A DNA stretch of 64,000 bases from a virus: IMG/VR virus record IMGVR_UViG_3300008267_000054, positions 52,440-116,439 of that record. One strand, given 5' to 3'. The notes under the pieces were generated by a model that worked only from the letters and a program-made list of their open reading frames with translations, ran no database searches and was not told the origin of the DNA. This document shows, piece by piece, positions 1-52,266 of this stretch. How positions within the stretch are numbered: position 1 is the stretch's first letter; every line of letters starts with the position of its first letter. The position numbers were made by a program, and so were the translations under genes.

Positions 1-1608
1 GAATCACCATTAACAGCTGCATACAAGTATATTGAAACAGCACCTAAGGGAGCGTATGCACTAGCATCAAGTAATAAAGGTGATGATTATATAAGAGTTA
101 AAAAGTTTGTTGAAGATCATGGAGAAAATGGTAAGTATGCAAGACCAGGGATATCTGTTCAAGAGCTTCCAATGGATCCAAAACCTTTACTATATAAAAA
201 TCGTAATGATGAGTTTAAAGGAAAGGGTATAAGTGCATCTGTTTTAAGAAATGATATTAAGCAGAAAAATCTCAAAAACTTCCAAACAAACTATCCAGGA
301 GTTCCAAGCGAAACTGTTTCCAATATCTTTAATATGCTTGTTAAGACTGTAAAAGAATCGGTTATGTTGACTGAGGGTGGAGGTGCCGGTCATCTAGCTC
401 ATCCATACGAAGACATGGATCTAACTTTCGCGGATATTGAAAGTATGATAGATGCAGCATTAGCTGGCAAACTTAATTTAGCACAAGAGAAGTTAGATGG
501 CCAAAATTTAATGGTATCCTATAAAAATGGTGGATTAGTAGCTGCAAGAAACAAAGGACAGCTTAAAAACTATGGTGAAAACTCTTTAAGCATCGAACAG
601 ATGAAAAAGCAGTTTAGTAATAGAGGGCAAATACAAGTTGCTTTTGTTGAAGCAATGAGAGATCTTGATAGTGCAATTAAAAATCTAAGTCCTCAAGAAA
701 AAGAAGAAATCTTTCAAAACGGAAAAAACTTTATATCGTTAGAAGTACTTTACCCTGGCACTGCAAATGTAATACCATATGGAGCAGCTCAGTTGAGATT
801 ACATCATGTTAAAACATACGATGAAAATGGTAATGTAGTTGATGAAACACAAGAGCCGGTAAAAAGATTGCAAGCAGCTTTAGAACAACAAAAGGCACAG
901 AACCAAAAAACCTACCAAATTAGAGCAACAGATCCAGCAACAATCAAACCAGACCAAGATTATGAAAGCAAGCGAAGTGAGTTTGTGCAGGAACTTGAGA
1001 AGCTAAGATCTAAGTATAACTTAAAGAGAGATGATAAAATGTCACTCTATTTTTACAATTGGTGGAAAGATTACATTACACAGAATGCTAAAGGATACAG
1101 GTACAAGATACCAGATCAAGTATTACAACTGCTAATCAATAGATGGGCATTTACTGATAAGACAACATCTATCAAGCAAATATACAATTTAATTAAAAAC
1201 GAAGACTTTAAAAATTGGGTTGTAAACTTTGATCGCACACAAGTTAATGATCAAAAGAAAATAGCTGGTCGACCGGTAGAAATGTTATTTTTAAAACTCG
1301 GAGCTCGTATATTAAAAAATCTTGAGAACCTTGTAACTCTAAATCCTGATCAGTCAGTTAGACAAATAAAAAAAGACCTCAATACATCAGTAGCTCAAAT
1401 TAAACAAGCAGCTTCATCACCAGATTATGCAGATGGCGAAGCAGCTCTGAGATTTTTAAAGAGAGAACTTGAGCGTATAAAAGATATAGGTGGTATGAGC
1501 ACAATTGTGCCAACTGAAGGTTTAGTGTTTACTTATAACGGAAAATTGTATAAGTTAACTGGTGCCTTTGCACCAATTAACCAAATACTAGGATACTTAA
1601 AATTCTAA
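1..1608 (+). CDS. Cytidylyltransferase-like / ATP-dependent ligase-like fusion protein, 5' end outside window
   Basis: The frame is open from base 1 and ends at TAA 1606-1608, so the true start lies upstream; the first internal ATG is at 172. Two nucleotidyltransferase signatures are visible. The part up to about base 300 looks like the end of a HIGH-type cytidylyl/adenylyltransferase, with the 'GISASVLRNDI' helix that resembles the family's ISxTxxR motif. Downstream are covalent nucleotidyltransferase (RNA/DNA ligase) motifs: motif I 'EKLDGQN' with the candidate adenylated Lys codon at 490, 'ARNKGQ', motif III-like 'LEVLYPGTANVIPYG', and motif IV/V-like 'EGLVFTYNGKLYKLTG' near the C-terminus. 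The gene is followed directly by the small-gene cluster, whose first ATG overlaps its stop. The role is inferred as nucleic-acid end repair or nucleotide transfer; the substrate is unknown. The two domain calls rest on short motifs. Confidence 0.65.
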   Translation, partial: ESPLTAAYKYIETAPKGAYALASSNKGDDYIRVKKFVEDHGENGKYARPGISVQELPMDPKPLLYKNRNDEFKGKGISASVLRNDIKQKNLKNFQTNYPGVPSETVSNIFNMLVKTVKESVMLTEGGGAGHLAHPYEDMDLTFADIESMIDAALAGKLNLAQEKLDGQNLMVSYKNGGLVAARNKGQLKNYGENSLSIEQMKKQFSNRGQIQVAFVEAMRDLDSAIKNLSPQEKEEIFQNGKNFISLEVLYPGTANVIPYGAAQLRLHHVKTYDENGNVVDETQEPVKRLQAALEQQKAQNQKTYQIRATDPATIKPDQDYESKRSEFVQELEKLRSKYNLKRDDKMSLYFYNWWKDYITQNAKGYRYKIPDQVLQLLINRWAFTDKTTSIKQIYNLIKNEDFKNWVVNFDRTQVNDQKKIAGRPVEMLFLKLGARILKNLENLVTLNPDQSVRQIKKDLNTSVAQIKQAASSPDYADGEAALRFLKRELERIKDIGGMSTIVPTEGLVFTYNGKLYKLTGAFAPINQILGYLKF

Positions 1609-1610
1609 TG

Positions 1611-1955
1611 ATGAAATTAAAAAGCATATTACAAAAGGAAATACTCAAAGAAGAGGAAATTCCATTGGCTGAGAAAAAAGAGGTAATTGGTGCATCACCA
1701 TTACTAAATCTCACCTTCCACCTAGACCACAAGTTCTCTAATGTTGGAGAAACTGGTAAACCCGAATTAACTTTTACAATAAGTGTTAGTTCTACTGGAG
1801 GAAAGGAGTATTACAAGATTGTGTCTGATCAGGCTGAAAAAGAAAAGTTTGAACTAGCAGTAAGAAAGGAAATTAATAAAGCTGCAAAAAGACTCAATAA
1901 GAATATGGAGTATATTGTTGAGAAGTATCAATTAAAACCAAGAGCAGAAGAATAA
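1611..1955 (+). CDS. Small protein with capsid-targeting-like N-terminal leader
   Basis: Unrecognised protein of 114 residues, lysine- and glutamate-rich. Two adjacent ATGs are available (1608 and 1611). I chose 1611 because it gives 'MKLKSILQKEILKEEE', which matches the leader on several other small proteins here (starts at 3754, 4049, 4284, 5063, 11208, 11751). The leader contains L-K-E, a possible site for a gp21-type prohead protease. The body has a beta-rich middle ('PELTFTISVSSTGGKEYYKI') and a helical lysine-rich end. It overlaps or abuts the upstream ligase stop and sits 5 nt before the next gene, so it is probably co-transcribed. No function is assigned; packaging into the head is an inference from the leader only. 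Confidence 0.7.
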   Translation: MKLKSILQKEILKEEEIPLAEKKEVIGASPLLNLTFHLDHKFSNVGETGKPELTFTISVSSTGGKEYYKIVSDQAEKEKFELAVRKEINKAAKRLNKNMEYIVEKYQLKPRAEE

Positions 1956-1960
1956 ACTAT

Positions 1961-2413
1961 ATGTTACGACAAGAAGGAGATATCTGGACAGAAAAAGGAA
2001 AAACTTGGACCATTAAGAATGGTATCAAGAGAACTGTTAGTAAATTTTCACAAGTACGAAAAGACTTGCAAACACCACTTTGCTGCCCAAATTGCAGTAA
2101 GACAATTAACCGTGTAGACGAAAAGTTTTACAAATTTAATAAGATGTGTTTGGACTGTACCATTGAATTTGAGCATGAGTTGCTTAAACAAGATAAGTAC
2201 CAAGATTATGAGCGTGCACGAGTGTTAGCAAATGTTAAAGGATGTGTAGATGATTTAGATGTGTATTTTAATGAGTATTTTCAAAACGCATCAAACAAAT
2301 CGTATGTTACAGAAGATGGAGAGGTTGAAACATGGACTGGTAACTCTGTAAAAAGAGTTGAAGAAATTGTTAAACCCGAACTAGATAAACTGAAACAGCA
2401 ATTTGAAAAATAG
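1961..2413 (+). CDS. Zinc-ribbon-like hypothetical protein
   Basis: A 150-residue protein with a CPxC...CxxC arrangement: 'CCPNCSKTINRVDEKF' followed about 20 residues later by 'MCLDC'. This is the usual layout of a small zinc ribbon. The N-terminus ('GDIWTEKGKTWTIKNGIKRT') is compact and basic, and the C-terminal half is helical and charged. Spacing to neighbours is 5 nt upstream and 3 nt downstream, indicating an operon. It lacks the MKLK leader of its neighbours. A nucleic-acid- or protein-binding role is possible but unproven. Confidence 0.7.
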   Translation: MLRQEGDIWTEKGKTWTIKNGIKRTVSKFSQVRKDLQTPLCCPNCSKTINRVDEKFYKFNKMCLDCTIEFEHELLKQDKYQDYERARVLANVKGCVDDLDVYFNEYFQNASNKSYVTEDGEVETWTGNSVKRVEEIVKPELDKLKQQFEK

Positions 2414-2416
2414 CAT

Positions 2417-3025
2417 ATGAAAATACCAGTTGAATGGATTCCAATTTTAGCAGCATTTATAACCGGAATATTCGGACCGATTATAGTACGCTTTGCAGCA
2501 AAGAAGTTTGAGTCAACAAAAGATCCCTTAAATGATGCTTTTGTGTTTGGTGAAAAGGTAGAGGAGAAATTATATAGTATGCTTGAAGAATATCAAGCTG
2601 ATAGAATTTACATTCTACAATTTCACAATGGTGGTCATTATTACCCTACAGGCAAAAGCATACAAAAATTCAGTATGTTTTATGAGGTAACTAAAGACAC
2701 AAAATACTCAATAAGAAACAATTTTCAGAACATACCAGTACATCTTTTTTCAAAAAGCTTGAAACAACTATCCGAACACAACTTTATAGCAATAGACGAT
2801 TATAAGGATCCAACTGTAGCAACATTTGGATTAAAGTATATTGCTGAGGAGAGTGGTACAAAATCATCATATTTATTTACAGTAAGGAATATTGAAGATA
2901 GATTAATAGCTGTTATGGGTTTTGATTTCTATAAAAAGAATGCATTAGCACATGATAAAACAACTGAACTACAGATAGAAGCAGCTGCTATCGGTGGTGA
3001 ACTTGCAAAATACTTAAAGAAATGA
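2417..3025 (+). CDS. Membrane-anchored GAF-like protein
   Basis: A 202-residue protein. Residues about 5-27 ('WIPILAAFITGIFGPIIVRF') form one hydrophobic segment that should anchor it in the membrane, followed by a basic stretch. The remainder has the look of a GAF/PAS-type sensor fold: 'RIYILQFHNGGHYYPTG' early, 'SSYLFTVRNIEDRLIAVMGF' later and a closing helix. The GAF assignment is from overall pattern, not from diagnostic catalytic residues. Its stop overlaps the next start (ATGA at 3022). An inner-membrane protein with a ligand-sensing domain could act during infection or superinfection exclusion; that is speculation. Confidence 0.6.
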   Translation: MKIPVEWIPILAAFITGIFGPIIVRFAAKKFESTKDPLNDAFVFGEKVEEKLYSMLEEYQADRIYILQFHNGGHYYPTGKSIQKFSMFYEVTKDTKYSIRNNFQNIPVHLFSKSLKQLSEHNFIAIDDYKDPTVATFGLKYIAEESGTKSSYLFTVRNIEDRLIAVMGFDFYKKNALAHDKTTELQIEAAAIGGELAKYLKK

Positions 3026-3456
3026 CATCAGAAGAATCAAAAGGACTTTGGCACAACATAAGAGCAAAAAGAGCTCGTGGTGAAAAGCCTGCTCCAAAAG
3101 GATCAGAGGAGTACAATAAAGCAGTGGCAGCAGCTAAAAAAATAAATGCCGATGAAGAAGTGACCATCTGTGAAAAATGTGCAGTGGCTCTTTTAGAAGA
3201 TATCAAGGCTGGTTTATTTGAAGCTGAGTACCAAGGTCGAGATGTCGCGCTTAATAAACCTATGAGAGGTGATGTTAAGAAGTTTAAGGTGTATGTTAAA
3301 AAGGGTGACAAGGTTGTGAAAGTTAACTTTGGTGATCCTAACATGAGAATAAAAAAGTCTAATCCTGAACGTAGAAAATCATTTAGAGCTAGGCACAATT
3401 GTGATAACCCTGGACCAAAAACTAAAGCTAGATACTGGTCCTGCAGAAAATGGTAA
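3022..3456 (+). CDS. Conserved phage protein with C-terminal 'RARHNCDNPGPKTKARYW' module
   Basis: A 144-residue basic protein that starts inside the upstream stop (ATGA). It seems to be composite. Residues 1-45 contain 'GLWHNIRAKRARGEKPAP', a lysine/arginine-rich module. After a 'CEKC' pair, the C-terminal half carries 'LNKPMRGDVKKFKVYV', 'VNFGDPNMRIKK' and the distinctive 'RARHNCDNPGPKTKARYW' ending in a Cys. I recognise this C-terminal module as recurring in T4-like environmental phages, without an assigned function. The cysteines (CEKC, HNC, SC) could bind a metal. Confidence 0.7.
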   Translation: MTSEESKGLWHNIRAKRARGEKPAPKGSEEYNKAVAAAKKINADEEVTICEKCAVALLEDIKAGLFEAEYQGRDVALNKPMRGDVKKFKVYVKKGDKVVKVNFGDPNMRIKKSNPERRKSFRARHNCDNPGPKTKARYWSCRKW

Positions 3457-3457
3457 C

Positions 3458-3754
3458 ATGCCGTACAAATATAAAAAAGTAGGAGACGAGTATGTCGTAT
3501 ACAAAAAATCAGGTGAGAGAGTTGGTGCAACTGCTGGTAATAAAGAAGCATTGCGTAAGTATCTTGCCGCATTACATATAAACGCTAAAGAAAATACAAC
3601 TATGACAAAAGAACAACAACTTCGTGAATACATCCGCAAAGAAATTAAAAAGGCTTTGAAAGAGGAAGAAGCAAAGCCGGATTACTTGGATGCTGATAAG
3701 GATGGTGATAAAAAAGAGCCAATGAAAAAAGCTTTTAAAGATAAAGAAAAATAA
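3458..3754 (+). CDS. Small lysine-rich protein with internal leader-like helix
   Basis: I chose ATG 3458, one base past the upstream stop, over an in-frame start at 3401 that would overlap deeply. The 98-residue product begins 'MPYKYKKVGDEYVVYKKSG', a compact beta-hairpin followed by a helix. From residue 49 (a second ATG at 3602) it reads 'MTKEQQLREYIRKEIKKALK' followed by EEE, which is nearly the same as the N-termini of the proteins starting at 11563 and 61404. The gene may therefore be a fusion of two units or carry an internal start. The C-terminus is acidic and lysine-rich ('YLDADKDGDKKEP'). Confidence 0.65.
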   Translation: MPYKYKKVGDEYVVYKKSGERVGATAGNKEALRKYLAALHINAKENTTMTKEQQLREYIRKEIKKALKEEEAKPDYLDADKDGDKKEPMKKAFKDKEK

Positions 3755-4062
3755 TGATAAAGCTCAAATCTTTATTAAAAGAAGAGATGACTAATTTGGG
3801 TGGAATGAAAATTCCAATCCAACTTGTAGATCTTTATTTTGCATTGGAAAAATGTCCAAAGGGCAACATATACGCATCTGCTCAAGATCAAACTAGATTA
3901 TTTAAAGCTTTGAGTAAATTTGGAGAAACCGCGGTTGTACAACCACTACTAAACAAAATTAATAATGTTTATGGTGAAAAGGGTTTTTATCTACTTAACC
4001 AGCAGGAAATTGATCCAACTAAACCAATAATGTTTCACTACATACCAAATGATCAAGCTTAA
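3754..4062 (+). CDS. Small protein with MIKLKSLLKEE leader
   Basis: Unrecognised 102-residue protein whose ATG shares the final A of the upstream TAA. The first ten residues, MIKLKSLLKE, match the recurring leader, and L-K-E fits a gp21-type cleavage site. After the leader the sequence reads as a helical domain ('IPIQLVDLYFALEKCPKG', 'TRLFKALSKFGETAVVQPLL'). Its 3' end overlaps the next gene by 14 nt. Possible head-internal protein; nothing in the body reveals a function. Confidence 0.7.
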   Translation: MIKLKSLLKEEMTNLGGMKIPIQLVDLYFALEKCPKGNIYASAQDQTRLFKALSKFGETAVVQPLLNKINNVYGEKGFYLLNQQEIDPTKPIMFHYIPNDQA

Positions 4063-4291
4063 AGAAATTTTAGACGAAAAGAAGGAAGTTTATGTTCCTT
4101 ATATGTACTCCAAGGATGGATTTGGATGTCATGTATGTAAGTTCTATTACAAAGAGGGTAATACCCATATGTGTAATAACGTTGATTACGTTAAGTATAA
4201 TAAGGGTAGTGAGGTGTTGGTAGATAATAATGGTAAACCTATAACGGATCCATCTAAGTGGTGTTCTAACTGGTTTAAACCAAATGATTAA
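4049..4291 (+). CDS. Cysteine-rich small protein with MIKLKEILDE leader
   Basis: An 80-residue protein overlapping both neighbours (14 nt upstream, 8 nt downstream). After the leader MIKLKEILDE, which ends in L-D-E, there are four spaced cysteines: 'GCHVCKFYY', 'HMCNN' and 'DPSKWCSNWF'. The C-x2-C...C...C pattern with terminal W-C-S-N-W suggests a small metal-binding or Fe-S-like fold. If the leader is removed by the prohead protease, the mature product would be an approximately 70-residue metal-binding domain. Function unknown. Confidence 0.7.
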   Translation: MIKLKEILDEKKEVYVPYMYSKDGFGCHVCKFYYKEGNTHMCNNVDYVKYNKGSEVLVDNNGKPITDPSKWCSNWFKPND

Positions 4292-4790
4292 GTTAAGCAA
4301 TATACTAGAGACTACTAATAAGGGATACACAATCTATTGTGATATGGATGGTGTACTTTGTGATTTCAACGCCGCTTACAGGGATCTATCGGGAGGATAC
4401 ACATTTGATGAGTATATTCAAGAGTATGACGTTCGAGCAGCATGGAAATTAATAAATGATGAAGGTGCTGAATGGTGGGCAAATCTACCATGGATGCCGG
4501 GAGGAGAGCAGTTATGGAAAACAATAAAGAAATACAAACCAACTCTACTATCAGCTCCATCTGCAGACCCATCAAGTATTGAAGGTAAAAAGCAGTGGAT
4601 AAATAAACACTTAGGTTATCAAAAAGCAATATTTGTACCAGCAAAGATGAAACAAAAATACGCTGATCAGTATAGCATACTAATTGATGATTATATTAGA
4701 AACGTTGAACAGTGGGGAGCAAAAGGTGGTATTGCAATTATGCATGTTGATTTAAACACAACATTAAATGAATTACGACCATATTTATAA
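4284..4790 (+). CDS. HAD-superfamily 5'-nucleotidase-like phosphatase with leader
   Basis: A 168-residue protein with the HAD motifs in order: motif I 'YCDMDGVLCDF' (nucleophile D20, D22), motif II 'LLSAPS' (S90), a lysine in the 'KMKQKYADQY' stretch, and motif IV 'ILIDDYIRN' (D135, D136). The short cap and motif context are typical of phage 5'(3')-deoxyribonucleotidase-like HAD enzymes, which hydrolyse nucleoside monophosphates. Oddly, the catalytic domain is preceded by MIKLSNILET, a version of the leader shared with non-enzymatic neighbours. The start overlaps the previous stop by 8 nt. Phosphatase call is firm; the substrate is inferred. Confidence 0.8.
   Translation: MIKLSNILETTNKGYTIYCDMDGVLCDFNAAYRDLSGGYTFDEYIQEYDVRAAWKLINDEGAEWWANLPWMPGGEQLWKTIKKYKPTLLSAPSADPSSIEGKKQWINKHLGYQKAIFVPAKMKQKYADQYSILIDDYIRNVEQWGAKGGIAIMHVDLNTTLNELRPYL
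4782..4789 (+). promoter_or_regulatory. TATTTATA element before 4803 gene
   Basis: Exact motif overlapping the HAD gene stop codon, 13 nt before ATG 4803. Confidence 0.45.
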
Positions 4791-4802
4791 AAAACATATA
4801 AG

Positions 4803-5066
4803 ATGAATAAAAATCCCAAACTATATAATGCAGTGATGAAAAAGGACTTGCAGCTAAGTCCAGAATTACTTAATCTCATTGACGATCAAACACAAGACAT
4901 GGATCTACAAGTAATCTCTAAAGGATGGGTTGCAGATACAATTGAGATGTTAAAAGATACAGAATTAATACGCACCGATGACGAGTATGATGAAAACCTT
5001 GTTACTGAGTTGGCTGAATTAGCGAGACTAATGATTGAAAAAAGAATTCAAGTAATCGTATTATGA
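4803..5066 (+). CDS. Hypothetical acidic helical protein
   Basis: Unrecognised 87-residue acidic protein, largely helical by composition ('ELLNLIDDQTQDMDL', 'LVTELAELARLMIEKRI'). It has no leader motif and no cysteines. An exact TATTTATA lies at 4782-4789, 13 nt before the ATG and overlapping the previous stop codon, so it may begin a new transcript. Its TGA stop overlaps the ATG of the next small gene (ATGA at 5063). Confidence 0.6.
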   Translation: MNKNPKLYNAVMKKDLQLSPELLNLIDDQTQDMDLQVISKGWVADTIEMLKDTELIRTDDEYDENLVTELAELARLMIEKRIQVIVL

Positions 5067-5242
5067 AATTAAAAAACCTACTACCGATCCGAGAGGCAAA
5101 AGAGGAAATGACAGACGCAACGGTTTGTAAGATGAAACTAAAGGATGGCAGAGTTGAACATATTATGTTTGATGACAAGGATAAGAAGAACTTTGATGCT
5201 AAGACAACTAAATTTTTAGAAATTTATAAAGATGCGAAATAA
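5063..5242 (+). CDS. 59-residue protein with MKLKNLLP leader
   Basis: A short gene between two recognised frames. The ATG at 5063 overlaps the upstream TGA and the TAA at 5240-5242 overlaps the next ATG (5232). The product begins 'MKLKNLLPIREAKEEMTD', closely matching the start of the protein at 11751 ('MKLVSLLPLNLREAEKE'), including LLP and REA. The rest is a small domain ('CKMKLKDGRVEHIMFDDKDK'). The tight overlaps on both sides and the conserved leader argue that it is real. I-R-E is a possible prohead-protease site. Confidence 0.7.
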   Translation: MKLKNLLPIREAKEEMTDATVCKMKLKDGRVEHIMFDDKDKKNFDAKTTKFLEIYKDAK

Positions 5243-5567
5243 ATCCAAAATACAAGAAAACCAATTTCGTGCGTTAGTTCGTAATGAAATTGCTAAAATA
5301 ATGAAAGAACAAGAAGATGAGCAAATTCCAAGCAAGGAGAAAGGAGCTGATCAAAAGGCTCCTGAAGAGGAAAAGCCTAAAAAAGATCGTGGTGAGGCAC
5401 TTGAAAAAATCACCTACTCATACACAAGAGCTTTAAAAAACAATTTACAACAGCTATCCTCAGAAGAGCTAGCAGAAGTAATGGATTCAATATTAGACCA
5501 TTTTGGATTTGGTAAAGATGGTAAGATGGATGTTCTTAGAACATTAAAGAACAAGATCCAATATTAA
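5232..5567 (+). CDS. Small charged protein upstream of terminase
   Basis: A 111-residue protein ending 23 nt before terL. The N-terminus carries the second leader type ('QFRALVRNEIAKIMKEQEDE'), similar to starts at 3602, 11563 and 61404. A lysine/glutamate/proline-rich linker follows, then a helical domain ('SSEELAEVMDSILDHFGFG', 'MDVLRTLKNKIQY'). Its place just before the large terminase is where a small terminase might sit, but no helix-turn-helix or gp16-like signature is visible, so I do not assign that role. Confidence 0.65.
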   Translation: MRNKSKIQENQFRALVRNEIAKIMKEQEDEQIPSKEKGADQKAPEEEKPKKDRGEALEKITYSYTRALKNNLQQLSSEELAEVMDSILDHFGFGKDGKMDVLRTLKNKIQY

Positions 5568-5590
5568 TTTAGATAGGTTACAGTAGGACT

Positions 5591-7171
5591 ATGAGCGAAC
5601 AGCAAAAGTCTATAAAAGAAATTATACGGGAAGAGTATAAGAAGTGTGCAACAGACCCAGCATACTTTATGAAAAAGTACTGTGTAATTCAGCACCCAAC
5701 AAAAGGTAAAATTCCATTTCAACTATTTCCATACCAGGAAGATGCTATTAGCAAATTTAATGAGTATGATAGAAATATTATTTTAAAATCTAGACAGCTT
5801 GGTATATCAACGCTAATTGCTGGATACTCACTGTGGATGATTCTTTTCAACAATGATAAGAATATACTTGTTGTTGCAATAGATCAACAAACATCCAAAA
5901 ACCTTGTAACAAAGGTTAGAGTGATGTATGAAAATTTACCTTCCTGGCTAAGATTAAAATCAGCAGAGGATAATAAACTATCATTACGTTTAGTCAATGG
6001 TTCACAAATTAAGGCAGTTGCATCAACCGGAACATCTGGTCGTTCAGAAGCTTTATCACTTGTAATTATTGATGAAGCTGCTTTCGTAGACAATGCAGAG
6101 GAGTTGTGGGCATCACTACAACAAACACTTTCAACCGGTGGTAGAGGTATTATTTTATCAACACCAAATGGAACAGGAAACTTTTTTCACAAACTTTGGA
6201 CTGCAGCTGAATCAGGTCAAAACAAATTCAACACACTTAGACTACCTTGGCAAGTACATCCTGAAAGGGACATAAATTGGAGAAAGCGACAAGATGAGGA
6301 GTTAGGAATAAGATTAGCTGCACAGGAATGTGACTGTGACTTCTCTACATCCGGTAATACTGTTATTGATCCAGTGATACTTGGAGAAATACTGAAATCA
6401 TCTGTCAAGGATCCACTATACACAAGAGGGTTTGATAATAATTTGTGGGTATGGCAACAACCAGACTACTCAAAGGATTATATTGTAACAGCTGACGTAG
6501 CAAGAGGTGATGGTAGTGACTACTCAGGATTCCACGTAATAGAGGTGGAGTCTATGGAACAAGTAGCAGAATACAAAGGCCAACTATCAACTAAGGACTA
6601 CGGTAATATGCTTGTATCGATTGCAACTGAATACAATGATGCATTACTTGTGGTAGAAAATGCTAACGTAGGTTGGGCAACAATAGATCAAATTATTACA
6701 AGAGGTTACAAAAATCTATACTATAGTTACAAAGATAATCTATTTGATTCAGATGCTTTTTTAACAAGAGGATACGATATTGCTAATAAATCTGACATGG
6801 TCGCTGGATTTACTATGAGTCATAAGATCAGACCGCTTGCAATATCGAAAATGGATTTGTATATTAGAGAAAGAGTTTGCACAATTCGTAGCAGGAGATT
6901 GATTGATGAGTTACTTGTGTTTGTATGGAAAAACGATAAGGCACAAGCTCAAAGTGGATATAATGATGACTTAGTGTTGTCATATGCACAAGGCATGTGG
7001 GTTCGTGACACGGCTTTAAAATTAAGACAAGCTGGTATCGAGTTGAATAAGATGGCAGTCTCAAATATTCAAAAAACAATGGCGATCAGAACGACCAATA
7101 ACCTTAATACTAACCCCTGGAAAGTTGAAACAAAAAATGGTAACCAGGAAGATATTACTTGGTTATTATAG
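5591..7171 (+). CDS. terL: Terminase large subunit (gp17-like)
   Basis: The ATP-driven DNA-packaging motor and headful nuclease, 526 residues. N-terminal ATPase: upstream 'PFQLFPYQEDAI' adenine-binding region, a deviant Walker A 'LKSRQLGIST' (about 66-74, where K66 must serve as the P-loop lysine because GKT is GIS), Walker B 'LSLVIIDEA' (D161, E162), and coupling motif 'LSTPNGTGNFFHKLW'. C-terminal RNase H-like nuclease: 'VTADVARGDGSDYSGF' (D302), 'LVVEN' (E356) and 'GYNDDLVLSYA' (D459/D460). The order and length match T4 gp17 closely. It is followed by a 29-nt gap with a TATTTATA element and then the portal, the usual T4-like neighbour. Confidence 0.96.
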   Translation: MSEQQKSIKEIIREEYKKCATDPAYFMKKYCVIQHPTKGKIPFQLFPYQEDAISKFNEYDRNIILKSRQLGISTLIAGYSLWMILFNNDKNILVVAIDQQTSKNLVTKVRVMYENLPSWLRLKSAEDNKLSLRLVNGSQIKAVASTGTSGRSEALSLVIIDEAAFVDNAEELWASLQQTLSTGGRGIILSTPNGTGNFFHKLWTAAESGQNKFNTLRLPWQVHPERDINWRKRQDEELGIRLAAQECDCDFSTSGNTVIDPVILGEILKSSVKDPLYTRGFDNNLWVWQQPDYSKDYIVTADVARGDGSDYSGFHVIEVESMEQVAEYKGQLSTKDYGNMLVSIATEYNDALLVVENANVGWATIDQIITRGYKNLYYSYKDNLFDSDAFLTRGYDIANKSDMVAGFTMSHKIRPLAISKMDLYIRERVCTIRSRRLIDELLVFVWKNDKAQAQSGYNDDLVLSYAQGMWVRDTALKLRQAGIELNKMAVSNIQKTMAIRTTNNLNTNPWKVETKNGNQEDITWLL

Positions 7172-7180
7172 TTCGTGCCA

Positions 7181-7188
7181 TATTTATA
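7181..7188 (+). promoter_or_regulatory. TATTTATA element before portal gene
   Basis: Exact motif in the 29-nt gap after terL, 12 nt before the portal ATG; leader is A-rich without Shine-Dalgarno. Confidence 0.55.
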
Positions 7189-7200
7189 AAAAAAGTATAG

Positions 7201-9021
7201 ATGGCCGAAAACAATTTATTTAACAGGCTTAAAAAATTATTTAGCACTGACGTAATCATTAGAAACGTTGGTGGTAATCAGTTAAAGGTTATTGATACCG
7301 ATAGAATTCAATCGGCGGGTAATATTGAAACTAATAGACGTGTCGATAGATGGTCTAGAGTATATCAACATACCCCAGGATTAAGTTACTATCAAGGACA
7401 GTTACTACACAGTTCACGTATAGAATTGTTTCGTGATTACGAAGCCATGGATACGGACAGTATTATAGCCAGCGCATTAGATATATACGCAGATGAATGT
7501 ACATCGAGAGATGAGTTTGGAGACGTATTAACAATCAGAACGCAAAACGAAAGAGTTTACAAAGTTTTGCGTAATCTATTTTATGATGTGCTTAACATTG
7601 AGTTCAATATGTGGCCGTGGACTCGCAATATGCTAAAGTATGGTGATTTTTATCTACACCTAAATATAGCAGATAAGTTTGGGGTAATTGGTGTTGATCC
7701 AATATCAGCTTACGAGATTATTAGAGATGAAATGTTTGATCCTGAGAATCCACACAGAGTGAGATTTAAAAGAGACGTTTCAGCTATTAGTGGCTATGCT
7801 ACTATCAACCAAAATGGTGAAGAGTATGATAACTATGAAATAGCACACTTTCGTTTATTAACTGATACCAATTTCTTACCATATGGTCGATCTATAATTG
7901 AACCTTCTAGAAAAGTTTGGAAACAGATTGTACTGATGGAAGATGCGATGTTGATTCATCGTATTATGAGAGCTCCAGATAAGAGAGTTTTTAAAATTGA
8001 TATTGGTAATATCCCACCAAATGAAGTAGATGCGTTTATGGAACTTACCATAAACAAAATGAAAAAGGTTCCATACATGGATCCCGAAACTGGTCAATAC
8101 AATTTGAAGTTTAACATGCAGAACATGATGGAAGACTTTTACTTACCGGTTCGTGGTGGTGAAAGCGGTACAACTATCGACAATCTGACCGGTTTAAATT
8201 TTGATAGCATTCAAGATATTGAATACCTAAAGAATAGGTTGTTAGGTTCCTTAAAAATACCAAAAGCATATTTGGGATATGAAGAGGATACAAGTGGTAA
8301 AGCAACGTTAGCATCTCAAGATTTTAGATTTGCTAGAACTATCGAGAGAGTGCAGCGTATTATGGTGTCTGAACTATATAAGATAGCTGTAATTCACTTA
8401 TACGCACAAGGATTTAAGGATGATGAGGTTGTAGATTTTGAGTTGAGCTTTACGGCACCATCTACAGTATATGAAAAGGAGAAGGTTGAATTGTGGACCA
8501 GTAAAATGACATTGGCTGGTGACATGATGGACAAAAAGCTCTTTAGCAAAGAGTGGATATATGAAAACCTATTTAATCTATCACCTGAGCAGTATGCTAA
8601 GGAAATGGAAAAGATGGTTGTGGATAGTAAAGAATTCTTCCGTCTCGAGCAAATTAAAAACGAAGGTAATGACCCAGTAAAAACAGGTCAATCCTTTGGA
8701 ACAGCACATGATCTTGCATCCTTATATAAGGGTAATGGAGGTATACCAAAAGGCTATGATGAAAGAGAGCCTGCACCTGATGGTGGATGGCCAGGAGCTG
8801 GTCGACCAGAAGAACCCGGATCATATGGTACACACCAACATCCACTTGGATGGGATCCACTTGGCTCAAAAGCAATAAGAAAAGTTTATGAGAGAGCAGA
8901 TGCTATGACAGCTGCTGGCAGACTAAAAGACTTCAAAAGTAAGGCTGTAAAGCAAACTATATTGGAGCAAAAAAGTACGCAAGAAGGTATGTTGGACGAA
9001 TCTGGACTATTAGATGAATAA
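7201..9021 (+). CDS. gp20: Portal vertex protein (gp20-like)
   Basis: The dodecameric head-tail connector through which DNA is packaged, 606 residues, close to T4 gp20 (524) plus a C-terminal extension. Characteristic stretches include 'ELFRDYEAMDTDSIIASAL' followed by DIYADE, the 'GDFYLHLNI' strand, the 'EIAHFRLLTDTNFLPYGRS' region and 'RLLGSLKIPKAYLGYEED' before the C-terminal barrel. The Gly/Pro-rich segment at about residues 520-560 and the charged tail look like the species-variable end. The ATG has no Shine-Dalgarno but a TATTTATA 12 nt upstream. Gene order terL-portal-...-protease-scaffold-capsid is T4-like. Confidence 0.95.
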   Translation: MAENNLFNRLKKLFSTDVIIRNVGGNQLKVIDTDRIQSAGNIETNRRVDRWSRVYQHTPGLSYYQGQLLHSSRIELFRDYEAMDTDSIIASALDIYADECTSRDEFGDVLTIRTQNERVYKVLRNLFYDVLNIEFNMWPWTRNMLKYGDFYLHLNIADKFGVIGVDPISAYEIIRDEMFDPENPHRVRFKRDVSAISGYATINQNGEEYDNYEIAHFRLLTDTNFLPYGRSIIEPSRKVWKQIVLMEDAMLIHRIMRAPDKRVFKIDIGNIPPNEVDAFMELTINKMKKVPYMDPETGQYNLKFNMQNMMEDFYLPVRGGESGTTIDNLTGLNFDSIQDIEYLKNRLLGSLKIPKAYLGYEEDTSGKATLASQDFRFARTIERVQRIMVSELYKIAVIHLYAQGFKDDEVVDFELSFTAPSTVYEKEKVELWTSKMTLAGDMMDKKLFSKEWIYENLFNLSPEQYAKEMEKMVVDSKEFFRLEQIKNEGNDPVKTGQSFGTAHDLASLYKGNGGIPKGYDEREPAPDGGWPGAGRPEEPGSYGTHQHPLGWDPLGSKAIRKVYERADAMTAAGRLKDFKSKAVKQTILEQKSTQEGMLDESGLLDE

Positions 9022-9025
9022 ACGA

Positions 9026-9033
9026 TATTTATA
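9026..9033 (+). promoter_or_regulatory. TATTTATA element before 9037 gene
   Basis: Exact motif ending 3 nt before ATG 9037. A T4-like +1 would fall inside the first codons, so either the transcript is leaderless or the motif works in another way. Confidence 0.45.
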
Positions 9034-9036
9034 TAC

Positions 9037-9900
9037 ATGAAAAAATCAACTCATTCCAAAATAAAAAACACCGTAATTCTCTTTGAATTATTATCTAGGC
9101 AAATAGCAGCAGATACAATACAAGGAAAAGAAAATTCTCCTGCTATCAAGCTAATCAAGGAGTACTTCAATAGTACTACTTGCCTAGCAAAAGAGTTGAC
9201 GCTATACCAATCCCTTATAAGTGAAAGCTACAAGTCAAAGGACAAGGCAAACTATCTAATCAACGCAGTTGTAAAAGCTAGAAAGGCTATTGACATTGAA
9301 AAGCTTAGAAGTGAGAAGTACAATCTAGTAAAGGAGATCAAAAAGCATTATGATCTAGAAGCTTTTTTCAAAACATCTCTAACAGACTATAAACTATATG
9401 CATCAATATACAGAATCTTTGAAGGAGCTGTTGCAGTTAATCCAAATGAGTTAGTTAATAGTCGATTCACTATCATAGAACACATTGTTGATAAAAAGAA
9501 GCTGAAAAGTGATGGTGACAAAACACAAAAGTTAATCAACGAATATACAAAGCAAGATGAAAGTGTTAGATTATTAGCATATCGTTTGCTTGTAGACAAG
9601 TTTAACGAGAAGTATAAAAACTTATCAGACAAACAAAAAAATGTACTGAAAGAGTATATTAATAACGTGTCTAATACAGCTACATTAAAGACCTTTGTTG
9701 TTGAAGAAGCTGGCAACCTAAAAAAGACTTTATCAAAGCAAGCTACAGAGGTAAAGGATCAAGTAATAAGGATCAAATTAAAGGAAGTTGTTAGTTTGCT
9801 TGGAAAATATGAGAAGATGAAAGTGGTTAATGAAAACCACGTATTATCTTTGTTACTTTATTATGAACTACATAAGGAATTGAAAAATGCTCACAAATAA
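9037..9900 (+). CDS. Conserved head-module protein of unknown function
   Basis: A 287-residue lysine-rich, mostly helical protein between portal and prohead protease. No catalytic motif or transmembrane segment is visible; repeated Lys/Glu helices ('RLLAYRLLVDKFNEKYKN', 'KQATEVKDQVIRIKLKEV') suggest coiled-coil or core-forming character. In T4 this interval holds small prohead-core genes 67 and 68, so a prohead core role is plausible by position only. TATTTATA ends just 3 nt before the ATG, leaving no room for a normal leader. Its end overlaps the next gene by 14 nt. Confidence 0.65.
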   Translation: MKKSTHSKIKNTVILFELLSRQIAADTIQGKENSPAIKLIKEYFNSTTCLAKELTLYQSLISESYKSKDKANYLINAVVKARKAIDIEKLRSEKYNLVKEIKKHYDLEAFFKTSLTDYKLYASIYRIFEGAVAVNPNELVNSRFTIIEHIVDKKKLKSDGDKTQKLINEYTKQDESVRLLAYRLLVDKFNEKYKNLSDKQKNVLKEYINNVSNTATLKTFVVEEAGNLKKTLSKQATEVKDQVIRIKLKEVVSLLGKYEKMKVVNENHVLSLLLYYELHKELKNAHK

Positions 9901-10585
9901 AGACCTACAAGAAGTTAAAAGCTTTATCAAAAAGGTTAAGAAGATGAAGCGAGAAGGCAGCACAACCGCAGGTGCTCCTGGCTACCTAACACCAAAAGCT
10001 TTTAGTGGAGAAGAGGGTGGAGAAGGTGCTAGCAATATAGATAAGATATCCCACGCAACAGGGTATGATATAAAAGCCAAAAAGACTAGAGTACATTCTA
10101 TAGATTTGCATGAAGTCAGCTACAATGATTTCAAGAAAGATGAATCACGCAGTACAGTCAAGAAAGTTAATGAGTCTATAATTGAAATCAACAGAAAACT
10201 TAGAGAAATACAGAGACTACTAACACACTCTAGTAAACTAAAAACTGAAGCTAGCTTAGATGACTCTAAATTGTGGAAACGTACAAATGAAGCACTTTTA
10301 AAGATATCAGATAGAATGTCTGAAATTGCTGATAAAACTAGACGTTTTGCAAATCTCAAAGAAATACAAACAAATGTTGGTTTAGAAAACATATTTAAAG
10401 CAGCAGGCCTAGATGCAGAAATTTTCAAAGATGCAGATGGATTGCATGTTGATGTTACTCATTTTGGTGAACCGGTAGGCTTTGATGTTGAAGGAACTAA
10501 AATTATAGATGACAGAGGTAAAGTGTTGGGAGATATATCAGATACGGACATTGTAGACAAATTGAAGCGTTATTTTAATGCATAA
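9887..10585 (+). CDS. Conserved head-module protein of unknown function
   Basis: A 232-residue protein overlapping the upstream gene by 14 nt. Near the N-terminus it has 'STTAGAPGYLTPKAFSGEEG', a Gly/Pro-rich segment of a kind I associate with prohead or internal proteins of T4-like environmental phages. The middle is a long helix likely to form a coiled coil ('VNESIIEINRKLREIQRLL'), and the C-terminus is a small alpha/beta domain ('GLHVDVTHFGEPVGFDVEG'). The location immediately before the prohead protease suggests a role in the head; it is not otherwise recognised. Confidence 0.65.
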   Translation: MLTNKDLQEVKSFIKKVKKMKREGSTTAGAPGYLTPKAFSGEEGGEGASNIDKISHATGYDIKAKKTRVHSIDLHEVSYNDFKKDESRSTVKKVNESIIEINRKLREIQRLLTHSSKLKTEASLDDSKLWKRTNEALLKISDRMSEIADKTRRFANLKEIQTNVGLENIFKAAGLDAEIFKDADGLHVDVTHFGEPVGFDVEGTKIIDDRGKVLGDISDTDIVDKLKRYFNA

Positions 10586-10588
10586 CAA

Positions 10589-10596
10589 TATTTATA
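10589..10596 (+). promoter_or_regulatory. TATTTATA element before prohead protease
   Basis: Exact motif, 6 nt before ATG 10603. Confidence 0.5.
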
Positions 10597-10602
10597 AGAA
10601 AA

Positions 10603-11205
10603 ATGGAAAATAAAAGACTACTAGTTGATTTTGTTGGGTCTTTTGAGTTAACACCTCAACAGATCAACGAGTCTATGATGCAAAATGATGGTAAACTGAT
10701 ACTAAGTGGTATCATGCAGCGTTGTGATGCAATTAACCAAAACGGTAGAAAGTACCCAGTAGAAATTTTAAGAAGAGAGGCTGACAAATACAAAAATGTG
10801 TTTATTAAGGAGCGCAGAGCATTAGGTGAGTTAGATCATCCAGAAAGTCCTGTTGTTAACCTTAGCAACGTATCACATAACGTGTTAGACTTGTGGTGGG
10901 ATGGTAACAACTTGATGGGTAAAATTGAGGTACTAGGAACACCATCTGGCAACATTGCTAGAGAATTATTAAAAGCTGGTATTCGTTTAGGAATATCATC
11001 TAGAGGTATGGGATCTGTTAAAGCAATTGGTGAGGGTAAAGTAGAGGTTCAAGATGATTTTGAAATCGTTTGTTGGGATCTTGTATCAAATCCAAGTACA
11101 CAAGGAGCGTTTATGAACCAGTTAAATGAAGGTAAAGGTAGTTCATTACCAAACAAATATGGTAAGGTAAATGAGCTTATAAATGACATTATAACATTGA
11201 TATAA
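10603..11205 (+). CDS. gp21: Prohead core protease (gp21-like)
   Basis: The serine protease that matures the prohead by cutting scaffold, internal proteins and the capsid N-terminus. The 200-residue product shows the herpesvirus-assemblin-like catalytic set: His in 'ALGELDHP' (H79), Ser in 'RLGISSRGMGS' (S132/S133) and an acidic residue in 'VCWDLVSNPS' (D159). Length and motif spacing match T4 gp21 (about 212). A TATTTATA lies 6 nt before the ATG. It is followed at 2 nt by three small genes whose N-termini end in L/I-x-E, the expected cleavage pattern for this protease. Confidence 0.93.
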   Translation: MENKRLLVDFVGSFELTPQQINESMMQNDGKLILSGIMQRCDAINQNGRKYPVEILRREADKYKNVFIKERRALGELDHPESPVVNLSNVSHNVLDLWWDGNNLMGKIEVLGTPSGNIARELLKAGIRLGISSRGMGSVKAIGEGKVEVQDDFEIVCWDLVSNPSTQGAFMNQLNEGKGSSLPNKYGKVNELINDIITLI

Positions 11206-11207
11206 CA

Positions 11208-11573
11208 ATGAAATTAAAAAACATACTCGACGAAAACTTTGGCAATCCTAAAAAGACGTCTGTAAACGAAAAAACAGCTTTCCTTGAGGAAGTGAAAAAA
11301 TTTAATGAGTACGGATCTGTTATTTACAGAACGGAAGATTTAAAAAAAGTTGCAGAAGCAATCACACAATTAGCAGAGAGAGCTGAAATGATTACGCTTC
11401 AGGAGACTGAAGATTGGTTTGATGAGGTGACGGTAAAAAAGAACATGCGTGGCATGAAACAGAATGTTAAGGAGTTTAACAGATCTGTAGCCGAAATTTC
11501 CAAACTACAACAGAGACTAGAATCTATTTACGAAGAAATTGGACACACACTTGGAAGATATTATGAACTCTAA
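11208..11573 (+). CDS. Small coiled-coil protein with MKLKNILDE leader
   Basis: A 121-residue, mostly helical protein directly after the protease. It starts MKLKNILDEN, the recurring leader with L-D-E. The rest is charged helix ('LKKVAEAITQLAERAEM', 'SVAEISKLQQRLESIYEEIG'), suggesting a coiled coil. It lies in the position of T4 prohead core or internal proteins, between protease and scaffold, which makes a head-internal role more credible than for the same leader elsewhere. Its 3' end overlaps the next gene by 11 nt. Confidence 0.7.
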   Translation: MKLKNILDENFGNPKKTSVNEKTAFLEEVKKFNEYGSVIYRTEDLKKVAEAITQLAERAEMITLQETEDWFDEVTVKKNMRGMKQNVKEFNRSVAEISKLQQRLESIYEEIGHTLGRYYEL

Positions 11574-11751
11574 GATCAACGAACTAAGAAATTTAATTCG
11601 CAAAGAGATTAAAAAAGCTCTTAGTGAAGATCTTGGCACAGATATTAAAAAGGCTAAAGATGTCAAAATGCAAGCGATAAAGAAGCTAGCTGATCTAGAA
11701 AAGAAGAAGGCAGACATCGATGTTAAAAACGCACAAAAAGGTATATCATAA
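11563..11751 (+). CDS. Short lysine-rich helical protein with LIRKEIKKALSE leader
   Basis: I chose ATG 11563 over an upstream in-frame start at 11539, which would overlap the previous gene more deeply. The 62-residue product begins 'MNSKINELRNLIRKEIKK' and continues ALSED; L-S-E is a potential gp21 site. The rest is almost purely Lys/Ala/Asp helix ('MQAIKKLADLEKKKADID'). Small basic helical proteins made beside the scaffold are typical of phage head-internal or core proteins. The stop shares a base with the next ATG (TAATG). Confidence 0.65.
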   Translation: MNSKINELRNLIRKEIKKALSEDLGTDIKKAKDVKMQAIKKLADLEKKKADIDVKNAQKGIS

Positions 11752-12131
11752 TGAAACTAGTATCACTACTACCTCTAAATCTTAGAGAAGCTGAAAAAGA
11801 AGCAAAAGACGAAAAACCGGCAGATGATGCAGAAGGTGGTGATGAAAATCCATTTGCTGCTGCGGATGATTCAAATAAAGATGCTGGAGAGGAAAGTGAA
11901 AAAGATGCAGCTGCGGATACTGGAGAAGAGGCTGAAGAGGGTGGTGATGCAAAATCAAGCGAAGAAGCAAAACCATTAGACATTGTGTTTAATCCAACAA
12001 GAGTGAGAAAGTACAATGATGTTAAGTTCAAAGACAATAAAGGTAGTGTTGTATCCATATCACGATTCGGTTTAACTGTTAAATTACCAGACGAAACTAC
12101 TGTTTTTGTTAATTTTGAAGATATTTTATAA
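11751..12131 (+). CDS. Acidic prohead-core-like protein with MKLVSLLP leader
   Basis: A 126-residue protein. It begins 'MKLVSLLPLNLREAEKEAK', near-identical in pattern to the gene at 5063. Residues 15-75 are extremely acidic and alanine-rich ('EGGDENPFAAADDSNKDAGE'), and the C-terminus is a small beta domain ending 'TTVFVNFEDIL'. Acidic low-complexity composition plus position before the scaffold resemble T4 gp67/gp68 prohead core proteins. L-R-E before Ala is a plausible processing site. It is followed by an AT-rich gap with regulatory-looking hairpins. Confidence 0.65.
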   Translation: MKLVSLLPLNLREAEKEAKDEKPADDAEGGDENPFAAADDSNKDAGEESEKDAAADTGEEAEEGGDAKSSEEAKPLDIVFNPTRVRKYNDVKFKDNKGSVVSISRFGLTVKLPDETTVFVNFEDIL

Positions 12132-12165: not shown

Positions 12166-12240
12166 GTCTATATTTATAGACGAATACGCTATTTCCTAAT
12201 ATAGCGTTTTTTATATCAAAGCTATTGTGGCTCAAATAGC
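12166..12240 (+). promoter_or_regulatory. Three stacked inverted repeats upstream of the scaffold gene
   Basis: Three hairpins follow one another. An imperfect palindrome, arms GTCTATA 12166-12172 and TATAGAC 12175-12181, encloses the TATTTATA at 12171. A terminator-like stem, ACGCTAT 12186-12192 with ATAGCGT 12201-12207, is followed by a T run to 12212. A third, GCTATT 12221-12226 with AATAGC 12235-12240, places a GTG (12227) in its loop. If TATTTATA is a promoter, the scaffold/capsid mRNA would start with a hairpin and a U run. The terminator-like stem could instead end the upstream unit. Confidence 0.5.
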
Positions 12241-12262
12241 CATAGAAATCACAAAAAGTATT

Positions 12263-13306
12263 ATGAACAAATTATTAAAAGACGCTATTGCGGACGCAAA
12301 AGCTGTGCGTGAAACAGCATTGGCTCAAGCTAAGTTAGCTCTTGAAGAAGCATTTGCTCCTAAACTTCAATCAATGCTTTCCAACAAAATTAAGGAAGAG
12401 ATGGAAGAAGAAGAGCCTAAAATGGATGCTTCAACAGAAGACGAAGCTATGAGAATGAAAGAACTTGCTGGTCTAGCAGAAAAGGGTGATGAAGACATGA
12501 CTGGAGACGACGAAATGTCCATGGATATGGATATGGGCGGCGAAGAAGGTGGTGAAGAATCCTTTGATGACATGGGCGGTGAAGACGAAATGGGTGGAGA
12601 TGAATTTTCTGGTGGTGACGAAGAAATGGGCGGAGAGGAAGAGTTTTCTGATGAAGACGATGACCTTGAAGAAATTTTACGTCAGCTTGAAGAAGAAGAG
12701 ACTTCATCTGATGAGGAAGATTCCTCAATGATGGAAATGTCCGATGATTCTGAAAAGAAGGATGAAATGGATGAAGAAATTAATCTTGACGAACTTATCC
12801 AAGCTCTTAAAGAGGGTGAAGATGAGGAAGAAAAAGAGGAAATGGACGAAGTTGCTGGTGACGAAGAGTACAAAAAATCTTCTGATCAAGCGATGGATGC
12901 CAACAAAGGTAGTCATGGTGATGTTGTAGAGATGAAGAAGAAAATGAAAAAGATGGAAGGAGAAATTAACGAAGCTTATGGAGCTGTTAAGTTTCTTCGT
13001 GAAAAGCTGTCTGAAGTAAATCTTCTTAATGCTAAATTGTTATACGTTAACAAGCTGTTTAGAAAGAATGGACTTTCTGAGTCACAAAAAGTTAAGATTA
13101 TCGAAACTTTTGATCGTGCTAAGAATGTGCGTGAAGCTAAACTTATCTACGCAACATTGTCTGAGTCCTTCGTAGCTCCGACAAAAACAAAAAAACCTGT
13201 AGTTGAAAACTTCGCTTCCGCTCCTGTTAAGAAGACTGAAGTTATTGCTGAAGGTAACGAACAAATGAACAGATTCAAAACATTAGCAGGAATCATTAAA
13301 TCTTAA
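12263..13306 (+). CDS. gp22: Prohead scaffold protein (gp22-like)
   Basis: The main prohead core protein, placed directly before the capsid gene as in T4. I prefer ATG 12263 (347 residues, starting 'MNKLLKDAIADAKAVRET') over GTG 12227, which would add 12 residues and lies in a hairpin loop. The N-terminal helix is alanine-rich; the centre (about residues 50-230) is extremely Asp/Glu/Met/Gly-rich low complexity; the C-terminal domain is a conserved helical scaffold end ('VKFLREKLSEVNLLNAKLLY', 'SESQKVKIIETFDRA'). It would be degraded by the gp21-like protease during maturation. Five nt separate it from gp23. Confidence 0.88.
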   Translation: MNKLLKDAIADAKAVRETALAQAKLALEEAFAPKLQSMLSNKIKEEMEEEEPKMDASTEDEAMRMKELAGLAEKGDEDMTGDDEMSMDMDMGGEEGGEESFDDMGGEDEMGGDEFSGGDEEMGGEEEFSDEDDDLEEILRQLEEEETSSDEEDSSMMEMSDDSEKKDEMDEEINLDELIQALKEGEDEEEKEEMDEVAGDEEYKKSSDQAMDANKGSHGDVVEMKKKMKKMEGEINEAYGAVKFLREKLSEVNLLNAKLLYVNKLFRKNGLSESQKVKIIETFDRAKNVREAKLIYATLSESFVAPTKTKKPVVENFASAPVKKTEVIAEGNEQMNRFKTLAGIIKS

Positions 13307-13311: not shown

Positions 13312-14916
13312 ATGAACTTATTCGAAAACGTAGAAGGCTATAATAGAGCCGATGAAATCAAACCACTTATTAACAAGTGGTCGAAGACTGGCCTTCTTGA
13401 GGGTTTGAGCACTCAGTACAAAGCTACTGTTGCTTCAATGCTTGAGAACCAGGCAAAACAATTAATTAAAGAAGGTTCAGCTACAACAGCTGGAACATCC
13501 GGAACTGGATACGAACAGTGGACTGGTGTAGCATTACCGTTAGTACGACGTGTATTTGCTCAGATCGCTGCTAAAGAATTCGTTTCTGTACAGCCGATGA
13601 ACTTACCTTCAGGTCTTGTATTCTATCTTGATTACAAGTATGCTACTGACAAGAATCCATTTGGATTTGCTCCAACTGAGAAAAACCAAACTGGTACACT
13701 TCAAGGTATCACTTCAACTATTGGTGTTGATGCATCTGATGGTTTGTATGGTGCTGGTGCTTTTGGTTACTCTGTAAACACTAAGAGTGGTAGTGCAGCT
13801 GTGTCAGCAACAACTGCTTCTGCAGCTGCTTCTGATGTTAATTATGATGGTGCTTACACAGCATCGGTTGATACACGTTGGAAAACAGTAGCAATTCCAA
13901 CATCATCTGCAACTGATCTTGATACTTTAGCTGTACGTTCATTCGTACCTAAGTCAGGTTCAACCATTCTTGAGCCAGGTCAATATGTACCAGCATTTAC
14001 TCGTATTTCTGGTGGTAATGTGTTATTCGTTGTAACAGCATCTGTAACCTTGAACATGACTGCAGGTTACAACTTCTTGTACTCAGTACAACCTACAAAC
14101 GATGCTCGTGGAGATTTCGAAGCTAAGCCAGTTAGTTCTACTAACCGTAACGTTGATACAGACCTTAGCATTCCAGAAATTGAATTGCAAATGCGCTCTA
14201 TCGCGTTAACTGCTAAGACACGTAAGTTGAAAGCAAGCTGGACTCCAGAATTTGCTCAAGACTTGAACGCATATCACTCAATCGACGCTGAAGCTGAATT
14301 GACTTCAATGTTGTCTGAGTATGTGTCAATGGAAATTGATCTTGAAATTCTTGATATGCTTATTAGCCAAGCTGCAACAACTGCATATTGGTCTGCTAAA
14401 GTTGGTCAAGAGTGGAATGGTTCAAGCTTCGCTACTAGCCAATTCACTGGTACAGCTTACGTACAAGGTACTTGGTTCAGCACACTTGGCACTCAACTGC
14501 AAAAGGTATCTAACGAGATTCACCGTAAGACCTTACGTGGTGGTGCTAACTTCTTAGTATGTTCTCCAACTGTAGCTACAATCCTTGAGTCAATCCCAGG
14601 ATATGCTGCTGATGGTGATGGTACTAAGATGACTTATAACATGGGTGTACAAAAAGTTGGTTCATTAACTGGCCGCTACACTGTGTATAAGAACCCTTAC
14701 ATGACTGAGAACACAATCTTGATGGGATTCCGTGGTAACCAGTTCCTTGAAACAGGTGCTGTGTACGCTCCGTACATTCCGTTAATGTTGACTCCGCTTG
14801 TATACGATCCGAATAACTTCACGCCAAGACGTGGTGTGATGACTCGCTATGCGAAGATCGTTACTCGTCCTGAGTTCTACGGTAAGGTTCTTGTTGCTGA
14901 CCTAAACACTATCTAA
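13312..14916 (+). CDS. gp23: Major capsid protein (gp23-like)
   Basis: The HK97-fold hexamer-forming shell protein, 534 residues (T4 gp23 is 521). The N-terminus has the T4-type prodomain ('IKPLINKWSKTGLLEGL', 'VASMLENQAKQLIKE'); a processing site is likely after E54 in LIKE|GSATTA, equivalent to T4 FLTE|A. Then come 'ALPLVRRVFAQIAAKEFVS' and 'VQPMNLPSGLVFYLDYKY', a diagnostic gp23 stretch, and near the end 'VLVADLNTI'. Codon usage is richer in C- and G-ending codons than its neighbours, as expected for a very highly expressed gene. A strong terminator follows. Confidence 0.97.
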   Translation: MNLFENVEGYNRADEIKPLINKWSKTGLLEGLSTQYKATVASMLENQAKQLIKEGSATTAGTSGTGYEQWTGVALPLVRRVFAQIAAKEFVSVQPMNLPSGLVFYLDYKYATDKNPFGFAPTEKNQTGTLQGITSTIGVDASDGLYGAGAFGYSVNTKSGSAAVSATTASAAASDVNYDGAYTASVDTRWKTVAIPTSSATDLDTLAVRSFVPKSGSTILEPGQYVPAFTRISGGNVLFVVTASVTLNMTAGYNFLYSVQPTNDARGDFEAKPVSSTNRNVDTDLSIPEIELQMRSIALTAKTRKLKASWTPEFAQDLNAYHSIDAEAELTSMLSEYVSMEIDLEILDMLISQAATTAYWSAKVGQEWNGSSFATSQFTGTAYVQGTWFSTLGTQLQKVSNEIHRKTLRGGANFLVCSPTVATILESIPGYAADGDGTKMTYNMGVQKVGSLTGRYTVYKNPYMTENTILMGFRGNQFLETGAVYAPYIPLMLTPLVYDPNNFTPRRGVMTRYAKIVTRPEFYGKVLVADLNTI

Positions 14917-52216: not shown

Positions 52217-52266
52217 CTGTTGTTAGAAACAATCAATTTAGGTATATTAATAAAAAAACAAAACGT

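Follow-up and report, generated by a model that had tools for sequence, protein, structure and literature searches.

Seven genes of an environmental T4-like virus of bacteria encode proteins that share a short N-terminal leader and then continue into unrelated bodies. They lie on the + strand of a window of 64,000 nucleotides, which is part of the 116-kb IMG/VR virus record IMGVR_UViG_3300008267_000054 (positions 52,440 to 116,439); coordinates are those of the window unless marked contig. Judged by its sequence and genomic setting, the leader is probably a divergent capsid-targeting sequence of the T4 kind, carried by head-core proteins and by cargo that would be injected. The open reading frames (ORFs) at 1611, 3754, 4049, 4284, 5063, 11208 and 11751 begin M(I)KLxx[LI][LI] and have a Glu further on. 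All of them exist as a first-pass annotation of this DNA had described them, although for the gene at 1611 the preceding codon, at 1608, is a possible alternative start (MMKL).

A regular expression for the leader, applied to the 64 kb, retrieved the seven genes plus two spurious ORFs. When residues 2–16 of the genome's own proteins were shuffled, a mean of 0.21 genes matched as compared to 5 called genes, a count that omits two real leader genes missed by the gene caller, and none of 5000 shuffles reached 5. Internal Met residues used as a control for the pattern gave 0 matches in 538. The motif [LI]-x-E ends at residue 9–14 in 7/7 leader genes, whereas it ends at residue 8–15 in 18 of the 105 others (17 %). 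The ending of each leader in or near [L/I]-x-E, as first noted, is confirmed, with two corrections: the Glu of the protein at 4284 is residue 9 (I-L-E), and L-x-E is reached at residue 14 in the protein at 1611.

The bodies are indeed unrelated, with no pair among the seven better than E = 0.29 in BLASTP, and codon usage is unlike between the leader copies. Within the families of the Cys-rich protein (4049) and the nucleotidase (4284), synonymous divergence (pS) in the leader amounts to 0.56–0.71, while the ratio of nonsynonymous to synonymous divergence (pN/pS) is 0.19–0.24 at positions 4, 7, 8 and 10 and 0.49–0.84 at positions 2, 5, 6 and 9. High pS together with low pN/pS at positions 4, 7, 8 and 10 means that the peptide is conserved and not the DNA, so that the first-pass annotation was right to set recent DNA duplication aside.

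Breadth, register and modularity of the leader

The motif search through the rest of the genome and through relatives, which the same annotation had proposed, added one internal Met only in the remainder of the 116-kb contig. In relatives, too, the leader lies well above chance expectation. Among 80 loci fetched with gp23, gene-strand matches to the expression numbered 52 ORFs, against 2 on the opposite strand. Taken together, all loci and contigs gave 305 different leader proteins, which group into 69 clusters by body; a few of the 305 are visibly internal Met starts, and the minus strand contributed one singleton. When the pattern did not ask for Glu, 54 of 130 families (42 %) nevertheless had it two residues past the hydrophobic pair (+2), as compared to 2–12 % at other positions; Asp takes the +2 place in 5 (4 %). 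This spacing and the preference of Glu over Asp are as expected under selection by a Glu-specific protease that recognises L/I-x-E. In an open-access library of papers we found none on a MIKLxxLLxE leader in these phages.

The leader behaves as a module. The body described as a HAD phosphatase belongs to that superfamily and is more exactly a 5'(3')-deoxyribonucleotidase homologue. In relatives it follows MIKLTDILKE, MISMKELFKE and other leaders, and a leaderless form starts with MYTIYCDMDG at the domain boundary. In an AlphaFold2 (AF2) model of the window protein, residues 1–11 score below 50 in the predicted local distance difference test (leader pLDDT 41), forming a detached disordered tail on a body of ~97. 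Foldseek assigned a deoxyribonucleotidase-like fold to this model (3bwv, TM 0.65), and a PDB profile search with the protein was empty. Distance to gp21 was considered as a cause of leader loss and rejected: nucleotidases with and without the leader both lie roughly 17–27 kb away, hence position does not explain the loss. The Cys-rich protein has 65 relatives on viral contigs, in which the leader pattern is kept and the linker varies. It gave no family match and its PDB profile searches were empty; as its AF2 model is also poor (pLDDT 63), a HiPIP- or zinc-like identity is not claimed.

PHROGs and Pfam searches on the bodies of 1611, 3754, 5063 and 11751 returned nothing useful, and in PHROGs most leader-protein bodies are unmatched, none of them matching the internal protein (IP) families of T4. 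Pfam matches among leader-bearing bodies include a Zeta_toxin-type kinase (1.6e-13), an Fe/Mn superoxide dismutase (1.1e-33) with the leader MIRLRDIITE that is phage-encoded (L127, 6125-6802), cytidylyltransferase-like and NT5C domains, a weak kinase-PolyVal match and an alpha/beta hydrolase below cutoff. Relative G002 has a leader-bearing ADP-ribosyltransferase (PF03496 4.5e-8; phrog_832, RNA polymerase ADP-ribosylase, 7.2e-5), and two more leader-bearing bodies contain HExxH-like motifs, read by eye. Leader proteins of immuto include the HAD protein gp087, gp082, the kinase-like gp093 and gp069. Kinase, nucleotidase, cytidyltransferase and 3022-type bodies are found again in Melnitz and HTVC008M, with N-termini (MKTFAELQE and MKKFSEIIEA, for example) that look nearer to the T4 tag. 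The huge phage LR756508 harbours a tandem array of five leader-bearing genes from two body families (L003, 23733-29612); their YRGT-like motifs are reminiscent of ADP-ribosyltransferases, but the genes gave no Pfam match and are not counted as such.

Linkage to the head genes

The head module of the window follows the T4 order, with gp17 at 5591, gp20 at 7201, gp21 at 10603, the gp22-like gene at 12227 and gp23 at 13312 (Table 1). Among cultured phages, those closest by gp23 are Flavobacterium phage immuto (56 %) and Microcystis phage Mel-JY01 (53 %). A homologue of 11208, conserved in 37 loci, is encoded immediately or a short way 3' of gp21 in the relatives that were inspected. The 11751 gene lies between the 11208 gene and gp22, a place that would suit a T4 gp67-like component, and its product resembles gp67 in position and composition. 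Both proteins are probably prohead core proteins, the other five, the deoxyribonucleotidase included, probably being cargo that the host receives upon infection.

The maturation site of the major capsid protein (MCP), cut between LIKE and GSA, had been noted to carry the same signature as the leaders. It is located at residue 54, and in relatives the precursors have L/I/V-x-E followed by G/A/S/N, with L/I/V-x-E kept in every relative examined. Several relatives also have leader-like MCP N-termini (MNIKSILNES, MKVNNILAES, MDTNSLLKES), and the gp22 homologues of relatives start M..DLLKEAIADAK.

The leader occurs on 0/75 homologues of 24 immuto proteins of replication, nucleotide metabolism, DNA modification and chaperone function, and likewise on 0/74 tail, terminase and portal proteins (homologues of 12); over all genes in the same comparison its frequency is 40/1085. 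Equal occurrence on cytoplasmic replication proteins, named at the outset as the observation that would speak against capsid targeting, is therefore not observed.

Two further N-terminal elements were seen. A helix LIR-x-EI-x-x-x-L-x-E recurs at 5232, 11563, 39522, 61404 and 5591 of the window and at contig 26701; since it is present on the large terminase (5591) and in the tail region, it is not head-specific. A third common leader, NFDLKKFLVENKLTxNSxxLKE, occurs on immuto gp069, gp076, gp077 and gp092 (L001/L091), one of them directly 3' of gp21.

Table 1. Leader genes, head genes and further candidates in the window
Feature	Position	Strand	Remarks
623-aa protein, C-terminal part	1..1608	+	full gene contig 52176-54047, starts upstream of the window
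Leader protein 1	1608..1955	+	MKLKSILQKEILKE, then 100-aa body of unknown function; 4 relatives
	3022..3456	+	no leader here; homologous bodies in relatives have MNRLEKIVQEVLKE
Leader protein 2	3754..4062	+	MIKLKSLLKE, then unknown body
Leader protein 3	4049..4291	+	MIKLKEILDE, then highly conserved Cys-rich body (CHVC..C..C)
Leader protein 4	4284..4790	+	MIKLSNILE, then 5'(3')-deoxyribonucleotidase (HAD, NT5C) body
Leader protein 5	5063..5242	+	MKLKNLLPIRE, then small body
gp21-type prohead protease	10603..11205	+	presumed leader peptidase; phrog_207 4.7e-57
Leader protein 6	11208..11573	+	MKLKNILDE, then prohead-core-like protein directly 3' of gp21
Leader protein 7	11751..12131	+	MKLVSLLPLNLRE, then very acidic body; gene between those of gp21 and the scaffold
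gp22-like scaffold	12227..13306	+	probable true start ATG 12263 (MNKLLKDAIADAK)
gp23 MCP	13312..14916	+	maturation site after E54
623-aa protein	59517..61388	+	N-terminus MTLDDLLSEV

Two additional proteins of the contig come into question. The protein encoded at contig 52176 starts with MNSLARYLIESLIKE and is probably a further leader protein; its N-terminal MNSLARYLIESLIKEAKG precedes a cytidylyltransferase-like motif. The protein also has a KLDG ligase-like region, which gave no significant match to DUF6267 in hhalign. The N-terminus of the protein at 59517..61388 makes it a possible, weak candidate. A run of secreted or lipoprotein-like genes was seen in one phage contig of the comparison (L086, 6719-14080).

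Known systems and rival explanations

The T4 capsid-targeting sequence of IPI–III (MKTYQEFIAE) is likewise a ten-residue N-terminal leader and the sole thing common to otherwise unrelated proteins. T4 gp21 cleaves after L/I-x-E, and in IPIII the first ten residues are enough for packaging, with positions 4 and 7 important for targeting and 8 and 10 for processing (PMC9026906). T-even internal proteins are described as having only the leader in common (PMC12373910; PMC3012670); about a dozen have been identified via the tag, few of them with known functions (PMC12373910). The window leader agrees in its hydrophobic residues at 4, 7 and 8, the Glu at 10, the gp21-type protease and the L/I-x-E motif, so that the likeness pointed out in the first-pass annotation extends to register and to the specificity of gp21 for Glu and not Asp. 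It differs in its consensus, MIKLxxLLxE, in bodies that are unrelated to the IPs and largely enzymatic, and in tagging a core protein too; its role in packaging is putative.

A generic pattern in the leader register, run over T4 with first-ATG starts, retrieved IPII, IPIII, Alt, gp24, gp2 and 61.1, and one evident false match, RNase H. The vertex protein gp24 has a processed propeptide of 10–20 residues (MAKINELLRE; PMC5694885) that is nearly identical to the window leader and shares its register, although T4 gp24 is a shell protein. Alt, a packaged ADP-ribosyltransferase (MELITELFDE), parallels the leader-bearing ADP-ribosyltransferase of G002, while no such enzyme was recognised in the window itself. 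The cytidyltransferase T4-GC190 was found in purified virions of cyanophage S-SM1 by mass spectrometry (PMC3037559), and its N-terminus, MKKFSAFLNEAERSF (MKKFSAFLNE, then A), is in the T4 register; this virion-detected enzyme with a leader shares a cytidylyltransferase-like motif with the contig 52176 gene. Together with the leader on the core protein next to gp21 and the similar starts of MCP and scaffold, it supports the proposed capsid targeting. Inner-body propeptides of phiKZ and SPN3US are cut after x-x-E by gp21 relatives and likely have a targeting role (PMC5694885), but they are mostly >100 residues long with an A/S-x-E motif. Polyvalent proteins (PMC5512222) are predicted injected enzymes with similar domain classes, yet they are multidomain giants without a short common leader.

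Several observations weigh against capsid targeting and processing by this leader. In the 11208-type core protein it is recognisable, under a relaxed pattern, in 22 of 37 loci only; those without it often have longer N-termini, which also end near L-x-E. Enrichment under the strict pattern is not significant in relatives G001 and G005, and some nucleotidase homologues lack the leader in relatives that encode gp21. The protein of contig 52176 has no significant direct similarity to S-SM1 GC190. Loci retrieved with two of the leader proteins as queries are over-represented in the family tally, though this bias towards the query families does not explain the number of body clusters. Finally, the residues after the leader Glu, most commonly S, V and I, are often V, I or L, whereas a T4-type sequence would be expected to have a small residue (A, G or S) after the cut and the MCP sites have G, S, A or N. 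Exactly where the leaders are cut is therefore uncertain, and a cut right after the Glu is doubtful for many of them; in some leader proteins it may fall at another site or not take place.

This last point favours a leader that merely docks on the core, with the Glu serving in binding or helix capping and the mature proteins keeping the leader, as does the finding that Asp at position 10 of the T4 leader blocks processing and still allows targeting (PMC9026906). We consider this possible but rather unlikely, because the 54:5 ratio of Glu over Asp is more readily explained by a Glu-specific protease than by a helix cap and the MCP sites of these phages are themselves L/I/V-x-E. A purely morphogenetic role, in which every leader protein would be a core component that is either destroyed or kept for assembly and none an injected effector, would agree with two of the seven standing in a gp67/68-like position. 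It is improbable in view of the nucleotidase, Zeta-toxin kinase, ADP-ribosyltransferase, Fe/Mn superoxide dismutase and alpha/beta hydrolase bodies, which have no plausible assembly role. As a short amphipathic helix known from sequence, the leader could also dock to a target outside the head, such as a membrane, a host factor or a polymerase; given the gp21/core gene context, the likeness to MCP and gp22 N-termini and the register of T4 gp24 and IPs, we hold this to be very improbable. MK-rich starts are common, but a translation-initiation or composition effect in an AT-rich genome, or a recent duplication of a 5' end, is refuted by the shuffles (0.2 expected), by the high pS at low pN/pS and by two AT-rich Bacteroidota phages without T4-type heads, which gave 0 leader matches.

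Implications for T4-like phages

For the window phage we infer docking, cleavage, packaging and injection as follows. The hydrophobic residues 4 and 7 of M-I-K-L-x-x-L-L-x-E would dock nascent proteins on the scaffold or core (gp22, core proteins) before closure of the shell. [L/I]-x-E would then be recognised by the gp21-type protease of the same gene cluster, which could free the body inside the head, where it would be packed with the DNA and later injected. Cleavage by this protease at the leader Glu appears likely, and injection of a subset of the enzymes is a reasonable expectation. On balance we lean towards a single open encapsidation code common to far T4-like phages whose hosts are aquatic and probably Bacteroidota, in which M(I)KLxx[LI]LxE would mark a protein for loading, trimming by gp21 and injection. 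By the same slight preference, the code would extend to dozens of families, including kinases, ADP-ribosyltransferases, the nucleotidase, superoxide dismutase and putative peptidases.

If so, the injected effector arsenal of each genome could be read from N-termini alone. Should the tag work as in T4, sequence alone would predict which proteins are injected across a large and mostly uncultured group of phages, among them enzyme classes not previously linked to head delivery. The tag would also be a second, divergent means of loading foreign proteins into phage heads. Proteomics of the cultured relative immuto could then address which proteins these phages deliver together with their DNA.

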